From Deltaproteobacteria bacterium (GTDB taxonomy: Bacteria; Desulfobacterota; Desulfobaccia; Desulfobaccales; 0-14-0-80-60-11): a DNA stretch of 37,442 nucleotides. The notes under the pieces were generated by a model. It was not told where the DNA came from. It was given only the letters and a program-made list of their open reading frames with translations, and ran no database searches. The stretch covers positions 1-37,442 of the forward strand of contig VGSJ01000023.1 in assembly GCA_016875015.1 (NCBI GenBank), read 5' to 3'. Made by a program: the position numbers and the translations under genes. This document shows positions 23,307 to 36,880 of the stretch, in pieces; the first letter of the stretch is position 1, and every line of letters starts with the position of its first letter.

Positions 23307-26300
23307 TTAAACCCATTGGAATAAAGACTCTGGTTCTGAAAAAATTTTCAGGCAAATATCAACTACTTCCGGATCATATAAGACTCCCCGGTTCCGGGAA
23401 ATCTCTTCCAGAGCCTTTTCTAGCCCTAAAGCCGACCGGTAGGGCCGGTGGGAGGCCATAGCCTCCACCACATCCGCCACCGCCAGGATCTTGGCCTCCT
23501 GGGTAATGTCCTCACCCGAAATACCCATGGGATATCCCGAACCGTTCACCCGTTCATGGTGCTGGAGAATGCCTTGAGCCACCGTGTAGGGGAAGTCTAT
23601 GTCTTTGATAATCTCGTATCCCAGCCGCGCATGGTCTTTAATTAGACTAAACTCCGTCTCACTGAGTTTGCCCGGCTTGCTCAGAATTTCGGCGGGAATA
23701 GATATCTTGCCGATATCGTGCAGGCACCCCAGGACTCGCATGCCCTCGAGCCGCTCCGAGGAAAACCCCATTTCCCGGGCAATGGCGCAGGCCAACTGCG
23801 CCACCCGCTGCTGATGCCCGGCGGTATAGGGATCTCGCATCTCCACGATACCGGCTACTGCCGACACTGTCCCCTCCAAGGCCTCTCGCAATTTTTCCAG
23901 GCTCTGGCGCGCCTCGGCCTCGGCCCGCTGGCGTCCTTCGTCCGTCCGCAAGGACCAGATGCCGAAGGCGACCTCTCCGGCCAGTTCCTCCAGGAGGCTG
24001 ACTTCTTCAGAGTCAAAAGCTTCTGAATCCCGCCCGAAGATATCCAGGATGCCGATGGTTTTTCCATCGACGATCAACGGCAACGCAATAATGACGTTAA
24101 ACTCCCGCCGGCGCAATTTCTCCTGCCATGGGGCCAAAGCCGGGGCATGGAGAAGATCTCTGGCTAACTGGGTCTGGCCGGTTTTGATGGCCATGCCGCC
24201 GGGGCCTTGCCCGAGTTCATCCTCTCCCCAGGTGATTTTCAGCCAGTCAGGATTTTCATCCCCGCTTCCCGCATAAGCAGCCGGGACCACCGACTTGGCC
24301 TCATCCATCCGGGCAAATCCCACCCAGGCCAGGGGATAGCCACCCTCTTGCACGATGATCCGGCAGACGTCGGTTAAGAAATCCTGCTCATGAGTGGCAC
24401 GCGCCAGCGCCTGGTTGCAGGCGCTCAACGCCCGGAGGGCCCGGGTAGTCCGGGAAAGTTTCTCTTCTGCATCTTTGCGGTCAGTGACATCAAACAGGAT
24501 GCCGCTGACATGGTCAATTTTGCCGGAGGAGTCCTTGAATATCTGGAGCAAGTCATGGATCCAACGAATTTCCCCATCCTTTTTCCGGATTCGATACTCC
24601 CACTCAAAAGACTGGTCAGATTGCCGGGTTGCCAGGAAATTCCGCCGGACATCAGTCAGGTCTTCCGGCAGGATGAGGTCTTTCCAGGTTAACGTGCGGG
24701 TGGTAAAGTCTTCCTGGCTATAGCCGGTCAAGGCTTCAACTTTCTGATCGAAGAAATCCATACTCCAATCGGCATATCCTTTAAACACCACCGCCGGGAC
24801 CTGGTTCATCAGCAGGCGGTACTTCGCTTCGCTCTGCCGCAGGGCTTCCTCCGCCTGTTGATTAACCAGGGAAACGGTAGCCAACTCGGCGAAGCCGGCC
24901 GCAAGATTGGCATCGTCCTCGCTGAACCCCCCGGGTTTATTGGCCAGCCCCAAGAGCCCCAAGATTTTTCCTCCCGCCTGCAGGGGGGCAAACAAGATGT
25001 TGTCCAGTCCTAAAGGACCTCCCGGCGGCAGCGGCGCCTCCTCGCGGTGGTTCAGGTCATTGTAAAAGATCGGACTCCCCCGGCCATAAGCCTCCTCCTG
25101 AAGCCCGGAGACCGGCGTGGGGAGGCTCGGTTCACCCGCACCCGGCGCCTCTCCGAAGTCACTGAAGACCACCAGGTCCCCCTGCCCATCTTCCGGGTGC
25201 AGGGCCACATAACCGGTCGTGGCGCCGATCAGCGACTTGCAGAGCGTGAAGATGTCTTTAACCGCGGCCTCAGAGGAGGGTTTACTTAAGACTACCTGGG
25301 AAGCCTTCAGCAAGGCCCTGGACTCCGTCTGGCACTGAATGGATGCCCCCAGGGCATTTAACAGTTTTGCTTCGGTGCGCTTGAGCTGGGTAATGTCCGC
25401 GATGATATGGACCGCACCGGTGAGATTCCCGGCCTCATCCAGGATGGGATCCACCGCCACCTTAAACCAGCCCTCGCCCACCGGCAGGATTAATTCTTCC
25501 CTCTGACGCGACTGCCGCAGACGTTCCAAGGGACAGCCGCCGATGGGTCCGTGCGTGTTGTGAACCACTTCCCAGCAGCGTCGCCCGATGATCTCGGGGA
25601 TGGGCTTCCCCACCAGGTCGGCCATGGCCTGATTGCATTGCAGCATCCGGCCCTCCAGGTCCAGCAGGAACAGGGCGTCGCCGATGGCATCGAAGGTGGT
25701 GCGCCACTTTTGGGCCGCAGTGCGCAGTCCCTCCTCGGCCTGCCGGCGCGCGGTGATATCTTCTCCCGAAGAGACGACGCCGATGATCTGAGCGGATTGA
25801 TCTCGGATGACGGCATTGTGGAAGGCAATGATGCGTCGCTCTCCGGTCTTAGTCACTACCGGATTCTCATAGCATTCCACCGGCTCAATGTCGCCGGCCA
25901 TAAGTTTTTGAAAAACCGCTTTGACTTCGTTGCATACATCTGGGGGCAAACATACCTCAAACCAGTTCTGTCCCAAGATCTCCTGCTCTTCGTATCCTAA
26001 AATCTCACAGCCCCTTTTGTTAATCAGGGTTATTCGGCCGGCCGCGTCCAGAACCACAAACGCCACGCCCGCGATATCCAGGTATTGCTGCGCCTGGTCC
26101 CGCTCCTTATGTAACGCCTCCTCCGCCCGCTTGCGCTCGCTGATATCCCGGGCAATGGACAGCACCGCGGGCTGGCCCTGGAGGTCCATCAGGCGGCTGC
26201 TGCACTCGGTAGGGATAATCCGCCCGTCCCGGGTGATGATCTCCGTTTCAAACACGAAACGGCCCGTGGCCCGGAGTTGTTCCAGGATCTCAGCCCGCCG

Positions 26301-27223: not shown

Positions 27224-28378
27224 TTAGAAGCCCCGGCCCGACATGCGGGCGTGGAGCATGGCCGCGGTGCGATAGACGAAGTGGGCCAGCTTGGTGTAGG
27301 GGGCATAAAAGAACAGCATGAACACCGCGGTCAGGTGCAGGAAGTACGTGGGGTAGGCCAGAATCTGGAGGTGCATCAGGCGGAACAGCCAGGCGAGCAG
27401 ACCGGTGGCGCCCACGACAAAGATCACGTAGATCAGGAACCAGTCATAGTAGGACCCGTACCCCGCCTTTTCGGCGTTGGCCTGGCGCTCTTTAATGAGG
27501 TTCCAGATCCCATAGAGCAAAGAGGCGGTCCCTGCCATGGCCAGCAGTTTTATGGGTGACAAGAGAAAGTAAGGGGGGTCGTGATGCAACACCCACTCAT
27601 TGATGAACCCCCAGGTAGTGACTATGAGCAAAAAGATAAACCCGAACACCAGGAACAGGTGGTTGGTGGCACGGGTATAGGTGGTTTCACACGTCCGGAA
27701 GCGGTTGTGAAACAAGATATCTTTCAAAGTGGCGATGAGGTTGCACACCAGGTTGCCTTCCACTTTGACCCGCCACGGATGCGGCGCGTTGATGTCCTGC
27801 CAGAAGGCCAGCACCCCTTTGCCCAGAACCGCCACGGCAAAGAAGAAGGCGGGGACAAAGATGAAGTCCACCGCCAGGGTGGGGAAGAGTTTGGCGAAGA
27901 TGATCTTCCCTTCGGGTATGGCTATGCCCTGGTGAACCAGGTTTTCCCCCACCTTGATGCCCATGCCGCCCATAATCTTGAGCAGGAACAGCAACAAGAG
28001 CATCGGGAAGGCGATGAGCAGGGGCAGGAACTTGGGGTCTCCCACCGCCTTGGCCAACAACGGCGGCGTGGCATACTTCTCGATGGCCATCTGCCGGAGG
28101 ACGCCCAGGACCTCACCGGGATTGGCGCCCCGGGGGCAATACACGGTGCAGTCGCTGCACTGGTGGCACAGCCAGATATCCGGGGCGCTGAGCACTTCTT
28201 TCAGCCCCCACTGGGCCTGAAGCATCTCCTTCCGGGGGAAGGGTTTTTCGTCCGGGGTGAGGTTACACACCACCGAACAGGTATCACATTGATAGCACTT
28301 CTTGACCGTGTCCCCCCCGGCGGCCATCACCCGCTTCACGAATTGGAGGTCCGGTTTAATGAGAATTTCACCTGCCAT
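27224..28378 (-). CDS. qmoC: QmoC, membrane subunit of quinone-interacting oxidoreductase
   Basis: A 384-residue HdrC/HdrE-like fusion. The N-terminal part carries two [4Fe-4S] clusters (CYQCDTCSVVC near residue 28 and CHQCSDCTVYC near 71). The C-terminal two thirds have about six membrane helices of the NarI/HdrE type, expected to bind heme b and menaquinol. With QmoA and QmoB it passes electrons from the quinone pool toward AprBA. Length and domain order are normal for the family. GGAGG lies 9 bases before the ATG; the gap from qmoB is 13 bases. It is the last gene before the terminator at 27167-27196. Confidence 0.96.
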   Translation of the reverse strand: MAGEILIKPDLQFVKRVMAAGGDTVKKCYQCDTCSVVCNLTPDEKPFPRKEMLQAQWGLKEVLSAPDIWLCHQCSDCTVYCPRGANPGEVLGVLRQMAIEKYATPPLLAKAVGDPKFLPLLIAFPMLLLLFLLKIMGGMGIKVGENLVHQGIAIPEGKIIFAKLFPTLAVDFIFVPAFFFAVAVLGKGVLAFWQDINAPHPWRVKVEGNLVCNLIATLKDILFHNRFRTCETTYTRATNHLFLVFGFIFLLIVTTWGFINEWVLHHDPPYFLLSPIKLLAMAGTASLLYGIWNLIKERQANAEKAGYGSYYDWFLIYVIFVVGATGLLAWLFRLMHLQILAYPTYFLHLTAVFMLFFYAPYTKLAHFVYRTAAMLHARMSGRGF

Positions 28379-28391
28379 GGAACATTACCTC

Positions 28392-30557
28392 CTATAAACC
28401 CTTGAAGGGGTTGGGGCCGATCTCTCGCACCCGGGCCACAAAGTCGTCCAACACCTGGGGGAGTTTGTCGAACTCGGAGATGGCGATTTGGAACTGCTGC
28501 ACCCGGTCGGCTTCCAGTCCCAGCTTGTCCAGGGTTTCCGACAGCTTGGTGAGCCGGTAGGCGCACAGTTCGCTGCCCTTGGCGAAGTGGCACTGGTAGT
28601 CGTCGCCGTACTTGCAGCCCAGGAGGATCATGCCGTCCACCCCATTGTTCAGGGCGATTTTGATCCACTCCATGGCGAAGGAACCCATGCAGCGCAGCGT
28701 GAGAAACCGAATTGCGGGGTTTATCTTGAGGCGATGCACCGCGGCGGCATCCAGCGCCGGCAGGGCGTCGTTTTCGCAGATCAGGCCGATGATCCGTACC
28801 ACGAAATTCGGATCGTCCTCGTCCTCTAGTTCGGGCACGTCCACGGCCTTAATCGCGGAGCCCATGATGTCCACGTTCAGATCTTTGAAGAAGACGATGC
28901 GCTCCGGGCAGGCCCCCATGCAGGTGGCGCAGCGCCGGCAGCGGTTGATCTTGAAAAAGGGCGTGCCCTTCTCGTCTTCCTCAATGGCGCCGAAAGGACA
29001 TTCCTCGGTGCAGCGTTTACAGGAGGTGCAGCGCTGCATGAAGGGGTCCGGGAAGGTCTCATCCCAGGCCCGGGGGTGCACCGCCATCCCCGCGGCCACA
29101 TGCTCCGCGGCCTGGATGGCCTTGCAGGCGGCGCCCACGCCGTCTTCAACGGCCATGGCCATGTTCATGGGCTGGTGGACGCAGCCGGCGGCGTAGATGC
29201 CGGTCCGCCGGGTTTCGTAAGGGAAGCAGATGAAGTTGGAGTCGGCAAAACCGTTGAACAGCTCCAGATCAGGCAGATTTGGCCCCTGACGGTAGCCAAG
29301 GTTGAGCACCGGCTCGTCCGCGGTCGCGGGGACCATGCCGGTGGCCAGAACCACCAGATCGGCCTCGAAGATGACGTTCGCGCCCAGCAGGGTGTCGGTG
29401 GCGTTGATCCGCAGCTTGCCGCCGTCACCGAGACTCACTTCGGCGATCTCCGCCTTGGTGAGCATCACGCCGGGATCACTTTGCACCTGCTTGTAGAACA
29501 ACTCCGTCTGCCCCGGGGTGCGGATATCCTTGTAGAGGAGATAGGCGATGGCGTTGGGGTTCCGCTCCCGGACATACAGGGCCTGCTTCAGGGCGGCCGT
29601 GCAGCAGAAGTCGGAGCAGTAGGGGAGATGGTCCGGGTCCCGGGAACCGGCGCACTGAATGAAGGCCACCGCTTCCGGGGCTTTGCCGTCGGAGGGCCGC
29701 ACGATCTTGCCCGCTTTGGCCATCTCCTCCATCTCGATATTGGTGATCACGTCCTTGGACAAACCATAGCCCAGTTTGACGAGCTTGGTGGCGTCGTAAG
29801 GCTTCCAGCCCGCGGCCAGGACCACGGTCCCCACCCGCAGGGTCTCCACGTCGCCGCCGACGCTGATGTCGGCGTCCAACAACCCGGGCTGCCCATCGAG
29901 CTTCTCCAGGGTCGCCGCGGTCATCACCTTGATTTTCGGGTGATTCAGGACTTCCTGGATCTGCTTGAAGACCACCGGCTCCTGGAGGGTGGTGTAGGGG
30001 TAGCTGGAAGGCGTCTGCCGGTACATCCTGGCGGCGAACCCGCCCAGTTGGGCCTCTTTCTCCACCAGGACCACCTGGTAGCCGTTGTTGGCCGCTTGCA
30101 GGGCGGCGCTTAAACCCGCAGTGCCGCCGCCGATGACCAGAATGGTCTTGTCGCATTCGGTCTCGTACGGCTCCGGCAGGTCGGTCTTCTTGACGCGGGC
30201 GCAGCTCATGCGCAGGTAGTCTTCCGCCAGGGCCTGGGTTTCCTCGCTAGCGGGGTCCTGGGTCCAGGCCACCTGTTCCCGGATGTTGCAGCGCTCCACC
30301 ATGACATTGGGGAAATCGAACTCTTCGTATTTCACCCGGGGGGAGCAGGCGGCGATGACCAGGCAGTTGATCCCTTCCTGGGCGATGTCTTGGTTGATCA
30401 TCGCCAGGCCTTCGGGGCTGCACAGGATGTCGTGCTCCTGGATATGCTGAATCTTGCCTTCTTTTTTGATCACCTTGATCAGGCTCTCAAATTTGACGGC
30501 CTCAGCGATGCCGCAACCCTTACACAAATAGACACCGAATTTCTTTTCTATTTCCAT
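28392..30557 (-). CDS. qmoB: QmoB, HdrA/MvhD-like flavin and iron-sulfur subunit
   Basis: A 721-residue soluble subunit. A short N-terminal Cys motif (YLCKGCG) precedes an FAD domain with VIGGGTAGLSAAL near residue 141. Two [4Fe-4S] motifs follow (CTSCKRCTEECP and CRRCATCMGACP, about 515-560), then an MvhD-like C-terminal domain with further Cys (LLGCKYGDDYQC). This is the standard QmoB architecture, combining HdrA with MvhD. Two adjacent ATGs exist at 30560 and 30557. AGGAGG lies 2 and 5 bases away respectively, so 30557 is preferred, giving a TGATG overlap with the qmoA stop. Confidence 0.96.
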   Translation of the reverse strand: MEIEKKFGVYLCKGCGIAEAVKFESLIKVIKKEGKIQHIQEHDILCSPEGLAMINQDIAQEGINCLVIAACSPRVKYEEFDFPNVMVERCNIREQVAWTQDPASEETQALAEDYLRMSCARVKKTDLPEPYETECDKTILVIGGGTAGLSAALQAANNGYQVVLVEKEAQLGGFAARMYRQTPSSYPYTTLQEPVVFKQIQEVLNHPKIKVMTAATLEKLDGQPGLLDADISVGGDVETLRVGTVVLAAGWKPYDATKLVKLGYGLSKDVITNIEMEEMAKAGKIVRPSDGKAPEAVAFIQCAGSRDPDHLPYCSDFCCTAALKQALYVRERNPNAIAYLLYKDIRTPGQTELFYKQVQSDPGVMLTKAEIAEVSLGDGGKLRINATDTLLGANVIFEADLVVLATGMVPATADEPVLNLGYRQGPNLPDLELFNGFADSNFICFPYETRRTGIYAAGCVHQPMNMAMAVEDGVGAACKAIQAAEHVAAGMAVHPRAWDETFPDPFMQRCTSCKRCTEECPFGAIEEDEKGTPFFKINRCRRCATCMGACPERIVFFKDLNVDIMGSAIKAVDVPELEDEDDPNFVVRIIGLICENDALPALDAAAVHRLKINPAIRFLTLRCMGSFAMEWIKIALNNGVDGMILLGCKYGDDYQCHFAKGSELCAYRLTKLSETLDKLGLEADRVQQFQIAISEFDKLPQVLDDFVARVREIGPNPFKGL

Positions 30558-31816
30558 CATGACCTCCTGCCCAGGGCGATGAGACTCTTAAGGGCGGCCC
30601 CGGTGCCATCCTGCACCGACTTGGTCACATCCAGGGGGCCCTTCAAGGTTCCCACGGCGTAGACTCCCGGCGGCAACAGTTCCTGAATGACAAAGCCATC
30701 CGGGGTGTAAGACAACGGCAGGGGGAAGGGGGAGGCTTTGGTGGAGGGCACCATGCCCGCCGCCAGGACCACCAGATCGAAGACCATGCTCTGCTTGTTG
30801 CCCGTAGCGGTGTTTTCCGCCACCACCACGACGTTGTCGGTTCCGGGTTCCTGGGTGATCTTGGCCACCTTACCCCTAATCAGATGGACCTTCTCATCGT
30901 CCCGAACCTTCCAGTAAAACTGCTCATAGCGGCCCGGGGTGCGGATATCGATGTAAAAGATATAAATTTCGGCCTCCGGGTCTTGTTCCCGCACATAGGT
31001 GGCCTGCTTCAGGGAAGCCATGCAGCAGATGTAGGAACAATACGCCAGATGGTTTTCATCCCGGGAGCCGGCGCACTGCACAAAAGCCACGCGCTTGGGC
31101 GGCTGCTGGTCGCTGGTCCTGAGGATCTGGCCGCCGGTGGGGCCGTTGGACGCCGCCAGGCGCTCCATCTGCATGTTGGTGATGACGTTGGCCACTTGGC
31201 CGAACCCCAGATTGTCCATCTTGGTGGCGTCGTAGAGTTCCCAGCCGGATGCCATGATGACCGCGCCCACGTTGAAGTTCAAGGTCTTGGTGGTCATGTG
31301 CAGCTCAATGGCGTCGTAGGCGCAGGCCTCCAGGCACTTCTGGCCGCAGTCGCCGCGGCACGCGCTCTTGTCGATGACATACTGTTGGGGAAAGGCCAGA
31401 TCATAAGGCAGATAGGCCGCTTTGGTCTTGTCCAGACCGTAGTTGAAATCGTTTACCCGCCACTGGGGGCACGCTTCCGCACAGGCATGACACGCCACAC
31501 AGCGATCATTGACATAGCGGGGGTGCACCTTTACGGTGACGTCGAAATTGCCGGCGCTGCCGCTGACCTGGGTCACTTCCGCCATGGTGTAAAAGCTGAT
31601 GTTGGGATTTTCTTTGATCCGGCGAAAGTTGATTTCCAAACCGCAAGTGGGAGGGCAGAGCTTGGGGAAGTATCGGTGGAGTTGGGCAACCCGGCCGCCC
31701 AGGTAGGGGCCCGCCTCGGCGATGATCACCTGAGACCCGGCTTCCGCCGCCTCCAGGGCTGCGGTGAGGCCGCTCATGCCTCCCCCGATGACCAGAATTT
31801 TGTTATCGGCGTTCAC
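30557..31816 (-). CDS. qmoA: QmoA, HdrA-like FAD subunit
   Basis: A 419-residue flavoprotein. The N-terminal nucleotide fold KILVIGGGMSGLTAAL is followed by the HdrA-type segment YFPKLCPPTCGLE and a Cys-rich region (CVACHACAEACP; CRGDCGQKCLEAC) that may hold iron-sulfur clusters. QmoA contacts AprBA and QmoB in models of the complex. The start is GTG at 31816, with AAGGAGG 6 bases upstream. An ATG at 31837 and longer versions lack such spacing and would exceed the family length. Translation is coupled to qmoB through TGATG. A candidate promoter lies about 80 bases before the start. Confidence 0.95.
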   Translation of the reverse strand: MNADNKILVIGGGMSGLTAALEAAEAGSQVIIAEAGPYLGGRVAQLHRYFPKLCPPTCGLEINFRRIKENPNISFYTMAEVTQVSGSAGNFDVTVKVHPRYVNDRCVACHACAEACPQWRVNDFNYGLDKTKAAYLPYDLAFPQQYVIDKSACRGDCGQKCLEACAYDAIELHMTTKTLNFNVGAVIMASGWELYDATKMDNLGFGQVANVITNMQMERLAASNGPTGGQILRTSDQQPPKRVAFVQCAGSRDENHLAYCSYICCMASLKQATYVREQDPEAEIYIFYIDIRTPGRYEQFYWKVRDDEKVHLIRGKVAKITQEPGTDNVVVVAENTATGNKQSMVFDLVVLAAGMVPSTKASPFPLPLSYTPDGFVIQELLPPGVYAVGTLKGPLDVTKSVQDGTGAALKSLIALGRRS

Positions 31817-31902
31817 ACAAGTCCTCCTTGGGGACATTGAAGCGATCCAGAGCATTGGCCGGGGCTCGTCTCCGGCCCAGGCCCTGAGACCCACTTTCTC
31901 CT

Positions 31903-32069: not shown

Positions 32070-34034
32070 TTACTTAACCAGCTGTTTGTAAGGCTCAGTC
32101 TCAAACTTCCACTCGTTGGTGTTCTTGTCATACTGAGAAATGGTGAACACCCTCCACTTGCTGTCATCGATTTTCAGGAAGTCAGAGCGGTAGTAGTAAC
32201 CGGGATAACGGGTCTCTTTCCTGAACAGGATATGCCGCAGGTGGGCCTCACCGGAGAGAATCCGGTGATACTGTTCCCAGGCCCGCATCAATTCGTGCAG
32301 GTCTGGCGCGGCCAACCGGGTCGCGTCTTCCTTCAGCATGGTGAGGCGCTTCAGGCCTTCGTTCAGCATGATTTCGTTGGTCTGGTACATGGTGGAGCAA
32401 CCCGCGACATACTCGTCCATCAGCTTCTGCAAGCGGGTCTGGACGTGCTTGGGCAGCAGGTAGTTGGGGTTGATCTCCGGCGCGGTGGTGTAGCCCTTGT
32501 ACTTCTCGTAGATCTCGAAGGGCAGGTAGATCTCGGCGATGACCTCGTCGATGTTCTGCGCCGCTTCCAGCTTGTCGTTCTTGTGGTCCAGGATGAAGGC
32601 CAGGGCGCCCTTGGCGGCCATGCGGCCCTCAGCGTGGGACCCGGAGGAGAACTTGTGCCCGGAGGCGCCCACGCCGTCACCGGCGGTGAACAGACCTTCA
32701 ACGGTGGTCATGCGGTCATAGCCCCAGAACCAGCTGTCCGGCGCGCCCATGTAGTTCTTGGAGGGACCGGAGACCCACAGACCGGCGCAGCCGGCGTGCG
32801 AACCGAGCAGGTACGGCTCGGAGGGGATGATTTCCGACGGCACCTTGTCGGGCTCCATGTTGAAGGAGGCCCACAGGCAGGCGGCGGAGATGGACATATC
32901 CAGGAAGTCTTCCCAGGCTTCAGCTTCCAGATGCTTGAGCTCTTTCTTGGAGAGCGTCTCGGCCAGTTTCTGCATGGCCTTGTCGGTGTGCATCATGATG
33001 GGGCCGCGGCCTGCCCGCATTTCCATCATGGCGGCATGGTTCCGCAGGCAGGTGCCCGGGGCATCAGCGTAGCCGGGATACTCTTCCTTGACCTTATCCC
33101 AGTTCTTGGCCATATAGTCTTCGCCGTAAGCGTTGGTGGCCTGGGCCTTGAAGAACAGGAACCAGGCGCCGACCGGGCCGTAACCGTCTTTAAACCGGGC
33201 CGGAACGAAACGGTTTTCCATCAGCACCATCTTGGCGCCGATTTCCGCGGGCATGGCGTAGGTGGAGCCGGCGTTCCATACGGGGTACCAGGCGCGACCC
33301 TGGCCTTCACCCACCGACCGGGGCCGGAAGACGTTGACCACGCCGCCGCAGGCCACGATCATGGCCTTGCATTTGAAGACATAGGTCTTGTGCTCACGGA
33401 CGCTGAAGCCCACCGCCCCGCAGACGCGGTTGCTGTTCTTCTTGTCGGTCAACAGCTTGACGATGAACACGCGCTCGTAGATGTTTTCCATCCCCAGGGC
33501 GTTCTTGGCGGCTTCCGCCACGATCACCTTGTAGGACTCACCGTTGATCATGCACTGCCATTTACCGGAGCGGCAGCATTTGCCGCCGTCTTTCAGCAGC
33601 GGCAGGCCTTCGTCTCTGGCCACCTGGCCGTCCACGGTGTGGTTTTCATTGTCTTTCTGCCAGATGGGCAGGCCCCAATCCTGGAAGTCATGCACGGACT
33701 GGTCGACGTGGGCGCCCACGCTGTGGACCAGGTCTTCCCGGATGATGCCCATGAGGTCAGTGCGCACCATGCCCACATAGTCAGCTATTTTGTTTTCCGC
33801 CCCGACATAGGTGTTGATGGCGGACAGACCCATGGCTACCGCGCCGGAACGATCCAGGGCGGCTTTGTCAACCAGGGTGACCTTCAGCCCGGTCGCTTTG
33901 GCCCACGCCATAGCTTCAACCGCGGCGCCGGTGCAAGCCATACCGCCGCCCACCAGCAGCAGGTCGGTTTCAACGGTGACGACTTCCGGTTTCGCACAAA
34001 AAGACCATTTACAGAATTCTCTTTCCAGAGCCAT
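32070..34034 (-). CDS. aprA: AprA, adenosine-5'-phosphosulfate reductase alpha subunit
   Basis: A 654-residue FAD subunit of dissimilatory APS reductase, which reduces APS to sulfite and AMP in the cytoplasm. The N-terminus has the FAD-binding GGGMACTGAA after TDLLLV, followed by the family signature SGAVAMGLSAINTY. Segments such as GQGRAWYPVWNAGSTYAMP and SSGSHAEGRMAAKGA are characteristic. Length matches the family (about 650-665). It lies 38 bases after aprB, with GGAGG 11 bases before the ATG. Tandem terminators follow within 20 bases. No inactivating change is seen. Confidence 0.98.
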   Translation of the reverse strand: MALEREFCKWSFCAKPEVVTVETDLLLVGGGMACTGAAVEAMAWAKATGLKVTLVDKAALDRSGAVAMGLSAINTYVGAENKIADYVGMVRTDLMGIIREDLVHSVGAHVDQSVHDFQDWGLPIWQKDNENHTVDGQVARDEGLPLLKDGGKCCRSGKWQCMINGESYKVIVAEAAKNALGMENIYERVFIVKLLTDKKNSNRVCGAVGFSVREHKTYVFKCKAMIVACGGVVNVFRPRSVGEGQGRAWYPVWNAGSTYAMPAEIGAKMVLMENRFVPARFKDGYGPVGAWFLFFKAQATNAYGEDYMAKNWDKVKEEYPGYADAPGTCLRNHAAMMEMRAGRGPIMMHTDKAMQKLAETLSKKELKHLEAEAWEDFLDMSISAACLWASFNMEPDKVPSEIIPSEPYLLGSHAGCAGLWVSGPSKNYMGAPDSWFWGYDRMTTVEGLFTAGDGVGASGHKFSSGSHAEGRMAAKGALAFILDHKNDKLEAAQNIDEVIAEIYLPFEIYEKYKGYTTAPEINPNYLLPKHVQTRLQKLMDEYVAGCSTMYQTNEIMLNEGLKRLTMLKEDATRLAAPDLHELMRAWEQYHRILSGEAHLRHILFRKETRYPGYYYRSDFLKIDDSKWRVFTISQYDKNTNEWKFETEPYKQLVK

Positions 34035-34072: not shown

Positions 34073-34498
34073 CTACTCGGTGCGCGCCGGGCCGGTGTAG
34101 AAACCGGGTTTCTTAAGATCCGCCAAGTCGCTGGGCAGGGTAAAGCCCTTGAAGCAATCAATGGTACCTTCCGGCGTGGTGCGGACTGGGAACTTGAACC
34201 GCTTCACCGTCTTCTGATTCCGGAACTTGATGGTCCAGGTGATATCGTTGCTGGACCGCATGGGGATGGTGCTGGAGCCGAGAGGCATGATATCCGCATA
34301 GTGGCGGACTTCAATGGCCTGCACGGGGCAGATCTTCACGCAGTTGTAGCATTCCCAGCACTGTTCCGGCTCCTGGTTGAAAGCCTTCTTTTGTACGGGT
34401 TCCAGGACCATCAGGTCATTGGGGCAGATGTACTGACAAGCGGTCTTGTCCAGGGCTTTACAGCCGTCACATTTTTCCACGATTACGAAACTCGGCAT
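34073..34498 (-). CDS. aprB: AprB, adenosine-5'-phosphosulfate reductase beta subunit
   Basis: A 141-residue iron-sulfur subunit that carries electrons to the AprA flavin. Two [4Fe-4S] motifs are visible: CDGCKALDKTACQYICP near the N-terminus (with the insertion typical of AprB) and CWECYNCVKICP. The C-terminal tail, which wraps around AprA in known structures, is present. The ATG at 34498 is chosen because GAGGAGG lies 9 bases upstream and the product starts MPSFVIVEKCDGC as in other AprB; the longer open frame is not credible. The 103-base gap to sat has a GGCGG/CCGCC hairpin but no T-run, so sat-aprBA is probably one transcript. Confidence 0.97.
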   Translation of the reverse strand: MPSFVIVEKCDGCKALDKTACQYICPNDLMVLEPVQKKAFNQEPEQCWECYNCVKICPVQAIEVRHYADIMPLGSSTIPMRSSNDITWTIKFRNQKTVKRFKFPVRTTPEGTIDCFKGFTLPSDLADLKKPGFYTGPARTE

Positions 34499-34601: not shown

Positions 34602-35831
34602 CTACTTTTTCCCGGGGATGTCCCCGGTGGCGAAGCCGTGGACCTTGACTTCCACTTTCTCGGTCAGGCCCCGGTAGTACTTCCGCAGCACGGTCAGGAC
34701 TTCGGGCCGGCTAAAGTGATCCGGCACTTCCATGTCTTCGGAGAGCATCTTCCGCAGCATGGTGCCGCTGAGCATCAGCCGGTCTTCCTTGCCGTGGCAG
34801 CAGGTCCGCATGGAGGCCATGCCGTCGCACTTGAAGCAGTAGAAGGTCCAGTCGATGTTCAGGGGTTTGAGCTCCAGGGCGTCTTTCGGAATCTGGAGGA
34901 AGATCTTCTGGGCGTCGAAGGGGCCGTAGTATTCGCCCACGCCGGCGTGGTCCCGGCCGACGATCAGGTGGGAGCAGCCGAAGTTCTGGCGGAACACCGC
35001 GTGGAACAGGGCTTCCCGGGGACCGGCATAGCGCATATCCAGGGGATAGCCGGACTGGATGCTGGTGTCTTTCACGAAGTAATGCTGGGTGAGGACGTTG
35101 ATGGCCTCGGTGCGCACTTCCGCGGGGATGTCGCCGGGTTTCAGTTTGCCCAGGAGCTGATGGATCAGGATGCCGTCGCAGACCTCGATGGCGATCTTGG
35201 CCAGGTACTCGTGGGAGCGGTGCATGGGGTTCCGGAGCTGCAGGGCGGCGATGGTTTCCCATCCCTTGTCCTCAAACATCTTCCGGGTTTCCCAGGGCCG
35301 CATGTAGAGGCCGGGATACTGTTTCGGGAAGGGGCCTTCACTCCAAGCCTTGACGGCGCCCCCCAGGTTGACCTCCTCCTGGCCCATGACCATCTGCACG
35401 CCCGGGTGGTCCATGTCATCGGTGGTGAAGACCTCTTTGCATTCCCACTTTTTGTCGATTTTGTACTTATCGGTGACCTTCATGGTCCCCATCATCTCTT
35501 CCGTCTCTTCGTCCACCAGGAGGACTTCCTGGCCGATCTTGATGGAGTCGGCCTTGCCCTGGTTGACGGACATGGTGACGGGGATGGGCCAGAAGGTGCC
35601 ATCGGTGAGTTTCATGTCGCCGACGGAGCCTTTCCAGTTTTTCTGGTCCATGAAGCCATCCAGGGGGGTGAAGCCGCCGATGCCCATCATGATGAGGTCG
35701 GCCGTTTCCCGGGAGGTCAGAGTGACCACGGTGAGTTCCTTGGCCCGCTTTTTCTCTTCGGCCACCTGGGCCGGGGAAAGCAGCAAGGGTTTTAATTTCT
35801 TCTCTTTACCAAGCGGATTTACTAAAGCCAT
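34602..35831 (-). CDS. sat: Sat, dissimilatory ATP sulfurylase
   Basis: A 409-residue sulfate adenylyltransferase that activates sulfate to APS. Active-site motifs are [11 protein letters not shown] near residue 200 and GRDHAGVG near 290. A Cys cluster ([18 protein letters not shown]) near 340 matches the zinc site of homologues in sulfate reducers. There is no C-terminal APS-kinase domain, as expected for the dissimilatory type. GAGGAGG lies 7 bases before the ATG. It is the first gene of sat-aprBA; the 179-base upstream gap holds a candidate sigma-70 promoter and a CRP/FNR-type palindrome. Confidence 0.98.
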
Positions 35832-35892
35832 CTATTTCCCTCCTCGGGCGTTAATGAGTTTTTTGTCAAAAGCGCTGACATCCTTGCATAAT

Positions 35893-35908
35893 TGTGAAAT
35901 ATTTCACA
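35893..35908 (-). promoter_or_regulatory. CRP/FNR-family operator (HcpR-like) in the sat leader
   Basis: TGTGAAATATTTCACA is a perfect 16-base palindrome of the form TGTGA-N6-TCACA, flanked on the plus strand by T before and T after (TTGTGA-N6-TCACAT). This is the canonical CRP half-site pair, and HcpR of sulfate reducers is reported to use a near-identical TTGTGA-N6-TCACAA motif. Relative to the promoter proposed at 35925-35953 it lies about +10 to +25, a position typical of repression. Confidence 0.7.
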
Positions 35909-35924
35909 TGCCATCTAGTTTCTC

Positions 35925-35953
35925 ACGATAAATCATCTCTCAAGGCTTGTCAA
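35925..35953 (-). promoter_or_regulatory. Candidate sigma-70 promoter for sat-aprBA
   Basis: Minus strand TTGACA (35953-35948), an exact 17-base spacer and TATCGT (35930-35925). The -35 is perfect and the -10 matches four of six. The predicted start is near 35918, giving a leader of about 87 bases that contains the palindrome at 35893-35908. Confidence 0.55.
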
Positions 35954-36010
35954 GAAGATTTTTCACGAACTTTTTTTCTCTGCGACCATGAATCTCAGCC
36001 TTTTTCGGGA

Positions 36011-36880
36011 TCAAGCGTTGAGACGATAGGCGATCGTGGGTTCTTGGCGACCCCGCAACACTACCGCCGACTCGGGCGTAGCCTTAAACTGCCCCTCCAG
36101 GGCCCGGAAAGTGGCCTCGCTGATCAGGGTGTCGGCTTCCACCTCTTTGGCCAGTTCCTGGAGCCGGGCCGCCACGTTGACCGCGTCCCCCACCACGGTG
36201 AAGTCCATGCGCTTGTTGGAGCCGATGTTGCCGACGATGGCCTCCCCGGTGTTGATGCCGATGCGCATTCCCTGGATGGGAGTCTGGCCCGCGGCTTGCA
36301 TCTGCCTCAAATGGCGCTGCATGGCCAGGGCGCATTCCACCGCATGGTTGGCCGCCTGGGGCAGCGGCAGCGGCACCCCGAACACCGCCATCAGGGCGTC
36401 CCCCACAAATTTATCCAGGGTCCCCTGATATTTAAAGACCAGATCCACCATCTCGGTAAAGTAGGTGTTGAGCACCTCCACCACGGCCTCCGGGGCCATG
36501 GATTCCGACAGGGTGGTGAAATTGCGGATATCGGCAAAGAGGACCGTCACTATCTGGCGCCGCCCTCCCAAGGCCAGCAGCCCCGGATTCCTCAAGATCT
36601 CTTCGCACAACTCCGGACTCACATAACGGGAAAAGGTGTCCCGGAGCACGTGCCGCTCCTGGTAGAGGCGCAGGCGGCTCCGCAAGGACGCCTCGTGGCT
36701 GGCCTCTTCCATGGCGATTTCTTTGAGGAGGGTCTTGAGCTCCGGATCGTCGGTCTCCTGGGACAGGGACAGGTAGCTCTTCCGGGCCTCGTTTTCGTGG
36801 GCGATGGCCAGTTCGATAGCCTGAATAATATTCAGTTCGGGTTTGGACTCGACGTCGGGTTGGGGTCGCTCGGCTTCCAT
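36011..36880 (-). CDS. Adenylate cyclase fused to a two-helix rubrerythrin/ferritin-like domain
   Basis: A 289-residue soluble protein. Residues 17-74 form two helices with the half-rubrerythrin pattern: E29 in E-x-x-A-R-x-x-Y (Y36) and E59-x-x-H62, the ligand set used for one half of a diiron site. A linker helix (83-96, SRYVSPELCEEIL) precedes a class III cyclase. Catalytic residues are complete: D117 and D161 for metal, K157 and D226 for adenine, N235 and R239 for the transition state. Cyclases dimerise, so two half-sites could build a diiron centre, as in encapsulated ferritins. Cyclic AMP formation gated by iron, oxygen or redox state is inferred. AAGGA precedes the ATG. The next gene on the strand is sat. 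Confidence 0.88.
   Translation of the reverse strand: MEAERPQPDVESKPELNIIQAIELAIAHENEARKSYLSLSQETDDPELKTLLKEIAMEEASHEASLRSRLRLYQERHVLRDTFSRYVSPELCEEILRNPGLLALGGRRQIVTVLFADIRNFTTLSESMAPEAVVEVLNTYFTEMVDLVFKYQGTLDKFVGDALMAVFGVPLPLPQAANHAVECALAMQRHLRQMQAAGQTPIQGMRIGINTGEAIVGNIGSNKRMDFTVVGDAVNVAARLQELAKEVEADTLISEATFRALEGQFKATPESAVVLRGRQEPTIAYRLNA

Follow-up and report, generated by a model that had tools for sequence, protein, structure and literature searches.

The perfect palindrome TGTGAAATATTTCACA, found as an exact match at positions 35893-35908 of the window (the whole stretch of 37,442 nucleotides analysed here), is very probably an operator of the NADH-sensing regulator Rex, which would repress sat and the genes behind it from just downstream of their promoter. 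Control of sat by Rex is already known in Desulfovibrio, having reportedly been described for Desulfovibrio vulgaris Hildenborough by Christensen et al. in 2015, and by analogy our case would be one of the same kind in a new lineage. The genome (3.1 Mb in 148 contigs, 99.96% complete) belongs to an order that we take to be Desulfobaccales, and its named close relatives, among them the MAG CG07_land_8_20_14_0_80_60_11 and 'Desulfobacca acetoxidans isolate FI88_58_11', place it near Desulfobacca. In sulfate reducers, this class of palindromes has been attributed both to HcpR and to Rex; our results point to its likely reader, and they would add an uncultured family near Desulfobacca to the bacteria in which Rex controls sulfate activation.

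The palindrome has no second match in the window at up to three mismatches, and shuffled windows contain a mean of 0.02 matches. As an earlier note on this DNA had claimed, it is a perfect palindrome situated between a cyclase gene and sat, both on the minus strand (Table 1). On the sat strand the 18-mer operator (35909-35892) ends 60 bp upstream of the sat ATG, and sat heads a run of minus-strand genes formed by aprB, an aprA-like gene and three genes called qmoABC-like from gene order and domains, without a specific model. The best promoter on this strand, TTGACA-17-TATCGT at 35953-35925, with hexamers that are consensus matches only, is followed by 15 bp and then by the operator. In an alignment of sat leaders, three stretches are conserved, namely GTGAAAAA-TTATTGACA, TAnnnT and the operator, and the sequence from the operator to the ribosome-binding site is diverged; the placement of the palindrome downstream of the best promoter, another claim of the earlier note, holds, with TTGACA and TAnnnT both conserved across the alignment. 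Since this site and the others described below lie at none of the usual activator positions, we infer that repression is the likely mode of control, so that the repression suggested in the same note on the basis of placement is supported as probable by an operator 15 bp downstream of the predicted sat -10 box. In relatives, the conserved TTCGTGAAAAATCTTC element stands about 58-59 or 68 bp from the main operator, two spacings that are roughly one helical turn apart.

Table 1. Genes and predicted regulatory elements around the palindrome, in positions of the window.
Feature	Position	Strand	Remarks
Class III nucleotide cyclase, N-terminal rubrerythrin-like stretch	36011..36880	-	Conserved upstream neighbour of sat in the family of this genome (f1)
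Conserved TTCGTGAAAAATCTTC element	35954..35969	-	Directly adjoins the -35 box; resembles half of an operator, or else an A-rich UP element
Predicted -35 box of the sat promoter, TTGACA	35948..35953	-	Invariant in 11 aligned leaders
Predicted -10 box, TATCGT	35925..35930	-	TAnnnT kept in relatives
Candidate Rex-type operator, 18-mer TTGTGAAATATTTCACAT	35892..35909	.	Contains the 16-mer 35893-35908
sat, dissimilatory ATP sulfurylase	34602..35831	-	Immediately downstream of the operator; PF01747, PF14306
aprB, APS reductase beta subunit	34073..34498	-	PF12139; start taken at ATG 34498
aprA-like, APS reductase FAD subunit	32070..34034	-	FAD_binding_2, Succ_DH_flav_C; named from position and domain
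qmoABC-like genes (445, 722 and 384 aa)	27224..31894	-	After aprA, same direction

The comparison with the sat leaders of relatives that the earlier note had suggested finds the palindrome conserved beyond chance. In all 11 f1 genomes with the window's type of sat, our own included, TGTGAAnnnnTTCACA is kept at 51-63 bp upstream of sat and TGTGAANNNNTTCACA is exact. The four inner bases of the operator vary among these leaders (ATAT, ATTT, AATT or AACT), and most f1 leaders have A...T as their outer base pair, as against the T...A of Rex sites; A...T also fits CRP. Among 40 related genomes, 31 of which have a sat match, the exact pattern occurs in 16 and its reversed control in one, and 14 of the 22 f1 sites with the exact pattern lie upstream of sat or of a sat fragment. 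In another family of the same order (f2), the three genomes with a window-type sat contain no site at up to three mismatches. Six of seven f2 sat leaders, with both sat types represented, contain a different palindrome, T(C/A)GTGCTAnnnTTCACGA, at 177-256 bp upstream of the sat match, which is possibly a diverged Rex operator.

When compared with the Rex consensus TTGTGAANNNNTTCACAA quoted in PMC6391272, the operator has one mismatch among 14 specified bases; the S. aureus Rex consensus is given as TTGTGAAWWWWTTCACAA in the accessible part of PMC6018154. Because TGTGAAnnnnTTCACA is both the core of the Rex consensus and a special case of TGTGA-N6-TCACA, the sequence of the site alone cannot decide its reader, and Rex is favoured by the presence of a rex gene, by other sites in the same genome, by the association of the site with rex across the phylum, and by a serine at the Arg180 position of the genome's CRP/FNR factor. 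The genome has one rex gene (PF06971 and PF02629; NCBIfam NF003993 at 300 bits; GIGNLGS motif), located by eye directly after atpB/atpE-like genes, and the PDB matches of its product are solved Rex proteins, with the QIRKDLxYFGEFG segment almost unchanged. A palindrome, TTGTGTAAAAATCCACAA, stands 30 bp upstream of the rex start. Among f1 rex leaders, 12 of 21 contain the palindrome at up to three mismatches 21-35 bp upstream (reversed control 0 of 21) and seven more contain a weaker one, with four or five mismatches, at 26-28 bp; the rex leaders of genomes G008 and G016 have none. The promoter scan found no promoter in the leader of rex itself.

A broad survey of named genomes returned 13 loci, nearly all from close relatives, and the association between site and rex was therefore examined in other genomes of the phylum. 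This set comprised 247 genomes, with sat in 109 and rex in 125, and 400 bp of sat leader were scanned in 70 of the 109 sat-positive genomes (30 plus a further 40 taken by rank, some of lower rank being passed over). A site at up to three mismatches was found in the sat leader of 20 of 37 genomes with rex and of none of the 33 without it (Fisher, 1e-7), and the reversed control in none of either group; at up to four mismatches the figures were 29 of 37 and 7 of 33, with 7 and 10 for the reversed control. The 17 rex-positive genomes in which no site was found at up to three mismatches within 400 bp include one relative of the same order. Genomes of one phylum are not independent of one another, and kinship is corrected in part by the test at the family level, where the site was present in 7 of 17 families with rex and in none of 23 without it (p 0.001). 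The comparison offers an easy test across the phylum, in which genomes without Rex should have no site.

Predicted bacterial Rex regulons are said to have been described by Ravcheev et al. in 2012; compared with the accessible account of those regulons, the candidates here come from an uncultured family and comprise dsrC, RsbRD_N-dsrMKJOP, hmc and CODH/ACS genes, and rex itself. At up to two mismatches, our genome contains ten Rex-type sites, versus three for the reversed control, and eight of them precede genes: sat, rex, dsrC, an RsbRD_N-domain gene followed by dsrM, hmcA, a gene for a CooC-like ATPase, a TauE gene and the gene of a lactate-type MFS transporter. Behind three of these genes stand further ones, with dsrK/O/P-like frames after dsrM, hmcB-F-like frames after hmcA, and a CODH/ACS delta subunit gene after that of the CooC-like ATPase. 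The remaining two sites are likely chance matches or doubtful, one being inside a kinase gene (window position 25558) and the other intergenic (C88), and an exact TGTGA-N6-TCACA at C102 is inside an ORF. The site overlaps the predicted -10 box at dsrM and TauE and the -35 box at dsrC, and begins 3 bp after the predicted -10 box at hmcA and 2 bp after it at the CooC-like gene, versus 15 bp at sat. The site of the dsrM operon was found in 17 of 20 f1 leaders and, across all 30 leaders compared, in 18, versus none for the reversed control; one of the three f1 leaders without it had only 105 bp available. The small RsbRD_N-domain gene stands before dsrM directly behind the Rex-type site (L008 and L237). 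Exact Rex-type sites also occur in G007 and G016 upstream of a gene pair for a small membrane protein and a TauE-like permease (L233 and L240), and a TauE gene with such a site is present in our own genome too (L001).

On the identity of the regulatory protein our results depart from the earlier note, which was right on control of sat and its probable repression and probably wrong in proposing CRP or HcpR. In control of the CRP type, cAMP from the adjacent cyclase would activate a CRP protein at TGTGA-N6-TCACA and thereby repress or activate sat. The palindrome does have this CRP form, and the cyclase that the same note had placed immediately upstream of sat is a conserved neighbour, adjoining sat in 17 of 17 f1 loci with enough upstream sequence (0 of 3 f2 loci tested). 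Nevertheless, we consider this explanation very unlikely. In a genome of such completeness, one HTH-bearing CRP/FNR protein was found above the cut-off (L012), the other five cNMP domains belonging to four proteins in which no HTH was matched, and its recognition helix, GTISETLSR, has a serine at the position of Arg180 in CRP, as do the 17 f1 homologues that were read, some f1 genomes having further paralogues. Judging by these residues, the factor should not read TGTGA sites. It aligns best with DNR and, by eye, has P-A in place of the R-S pair of CRP, which we take to be cAMP-pocket residues, while the canonical FGE...R(S/T)A motifs are confined to proteins without an HTH. The sequence of the sole factor found points to a genome in which no CRP/FNR protein binds the site, an outcome that the earlier note had named as speaking against its own reading, whereas the site agrees with the Rex consensus and tracks rex across the phylum.

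Control by HcpR, in which a CRP/FNR-family sensor of NO or redox state would repress sat as was proposed for Desulfovibrio in 2004, meets similar difficulties and appears improbable. The available text of that proposal (Rodionov et al. 2004, PMC545781), on an HcpR/CRP-like regulon, describes the same class of palindrome upstream of sat, with predicted HcpR sites TTGTGANNNNNNTCACAA upstream of sat and apsAB, and HcpR1 of D. desulfuricans binds a sat promoter weakly (PMC5701242). However, by the rule stated in the same portion of PMC545781, a serine at position 180 pairs with TTTGA-type and not with TGTGA-type sites, and our genome differs from those described there in that its only CRP/FNR factor found lacks the arginine tied to such sites. 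Moreover, the HcpR1 study found no differential expression of sat (PMC5701242), and later work assigns sat to Rex (PMC7531388). A palindrome downstream of a predicted transcription start could also act within the 5' untranslated leader as an RNA hairpin instead of a protein site, but its arms do not vary in any of the 11 leaders, with compensatory changes absent, the stem would be short and A+T-rich, and the similar sites at dsrM, TauE and dsrC overlap predicted promoter boxes, all of which makes a hairpin barely credible.

Under control by Rex, binding of the protein to this operator, the response to NADH, repression, and the grouping of the downstream genes into one transcription unit would follow the pattern of D. 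vulgaris and other bacteria. At low NADH/NAD+, Rex would bind a short way past the sat promoter and block transcription of sat and of the aprBA and qmoABC-like genes behind it. A rise in NADH, for example when the demand for electron acceptor is unmet, would lead Rex to take NADH and let go, and sulfate activation would then be expressed. In D. vulgaris, where Rex represses sat, sat transcripts rose about 11-fold when rex was lost and about 4.6-fold when the binding site was lost, according to the accessible part of PMC7531388, and on this analogy high NADH should release Rex and switch sulfate activation on. As far as the available portions of PMC7531388 and PMC6018154 go, the D. vulgaris Hildenborough system shares with ours a Rex palindrome in the sat leader, a position that fits repression and a predicted NADH signal. 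Unlike that system, ours belongs to another lineage, and in it sat heads the sat-aprBA-qmo-like genes with one strong operator, known from sequence; the name of the D. vulgaris binding-site mutant, IR1and2, suggests two inverted repeats there (PMC7531388, same part). The accessible text of PMC4215793 likewise states that in Desulfovibrio Rex coregulates Rnf together with many genes of sulfate reduction.

In the f1 genomes, sat is either of the window's type or of a second type, 29-32% identical to it, and the genes on its two sides are the same in both cases, with the cyclase (62-91% identity) upstream and aprB (78-90%) downstream. The leaders of second-type sat genes (L048, L040-L043, L045 and L047) contain the site at up to three mismatches in 7 of 7 cases with enough sequence, and the reversed control in 0 of 7; an eighth, from G012, has only 144 bp upstream and was left out of this count. 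Alignments of the G007 leader with 10 leaders of the window type reach 77-86% across 86-123 bp (scores of 69-94, against at most 29 for shuffles), although the Sat protein of G007 is 29% identical to that of the window. The simplest reading of these alignments is that the sat reading frame was replaced in place while promoter and operator were kept, which would be a clear example of regulation that survived the replacement of its target gene. A tentative extension, which we regard as quite possible though short of probable, is that cyclase, promoter and Rex operator form a fixed regulatory socket in which sat was swapped for a distant type with Rex control kept, that nearly the whole chain (sat-apr-qmo, dsrC, dsrMKJOP and hmc) is on one NADH switch, and that the rubrerythrin-like cyclase may add a second input by a route other than the operator. 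Action of the cyclase through this operator is unlikely. Elsewhere in the genome, a lone cyclic-nucleotide-domain protein without an HTH (L019) is encoded between iron-sulfur and flavin oxidoreductase-like frames.
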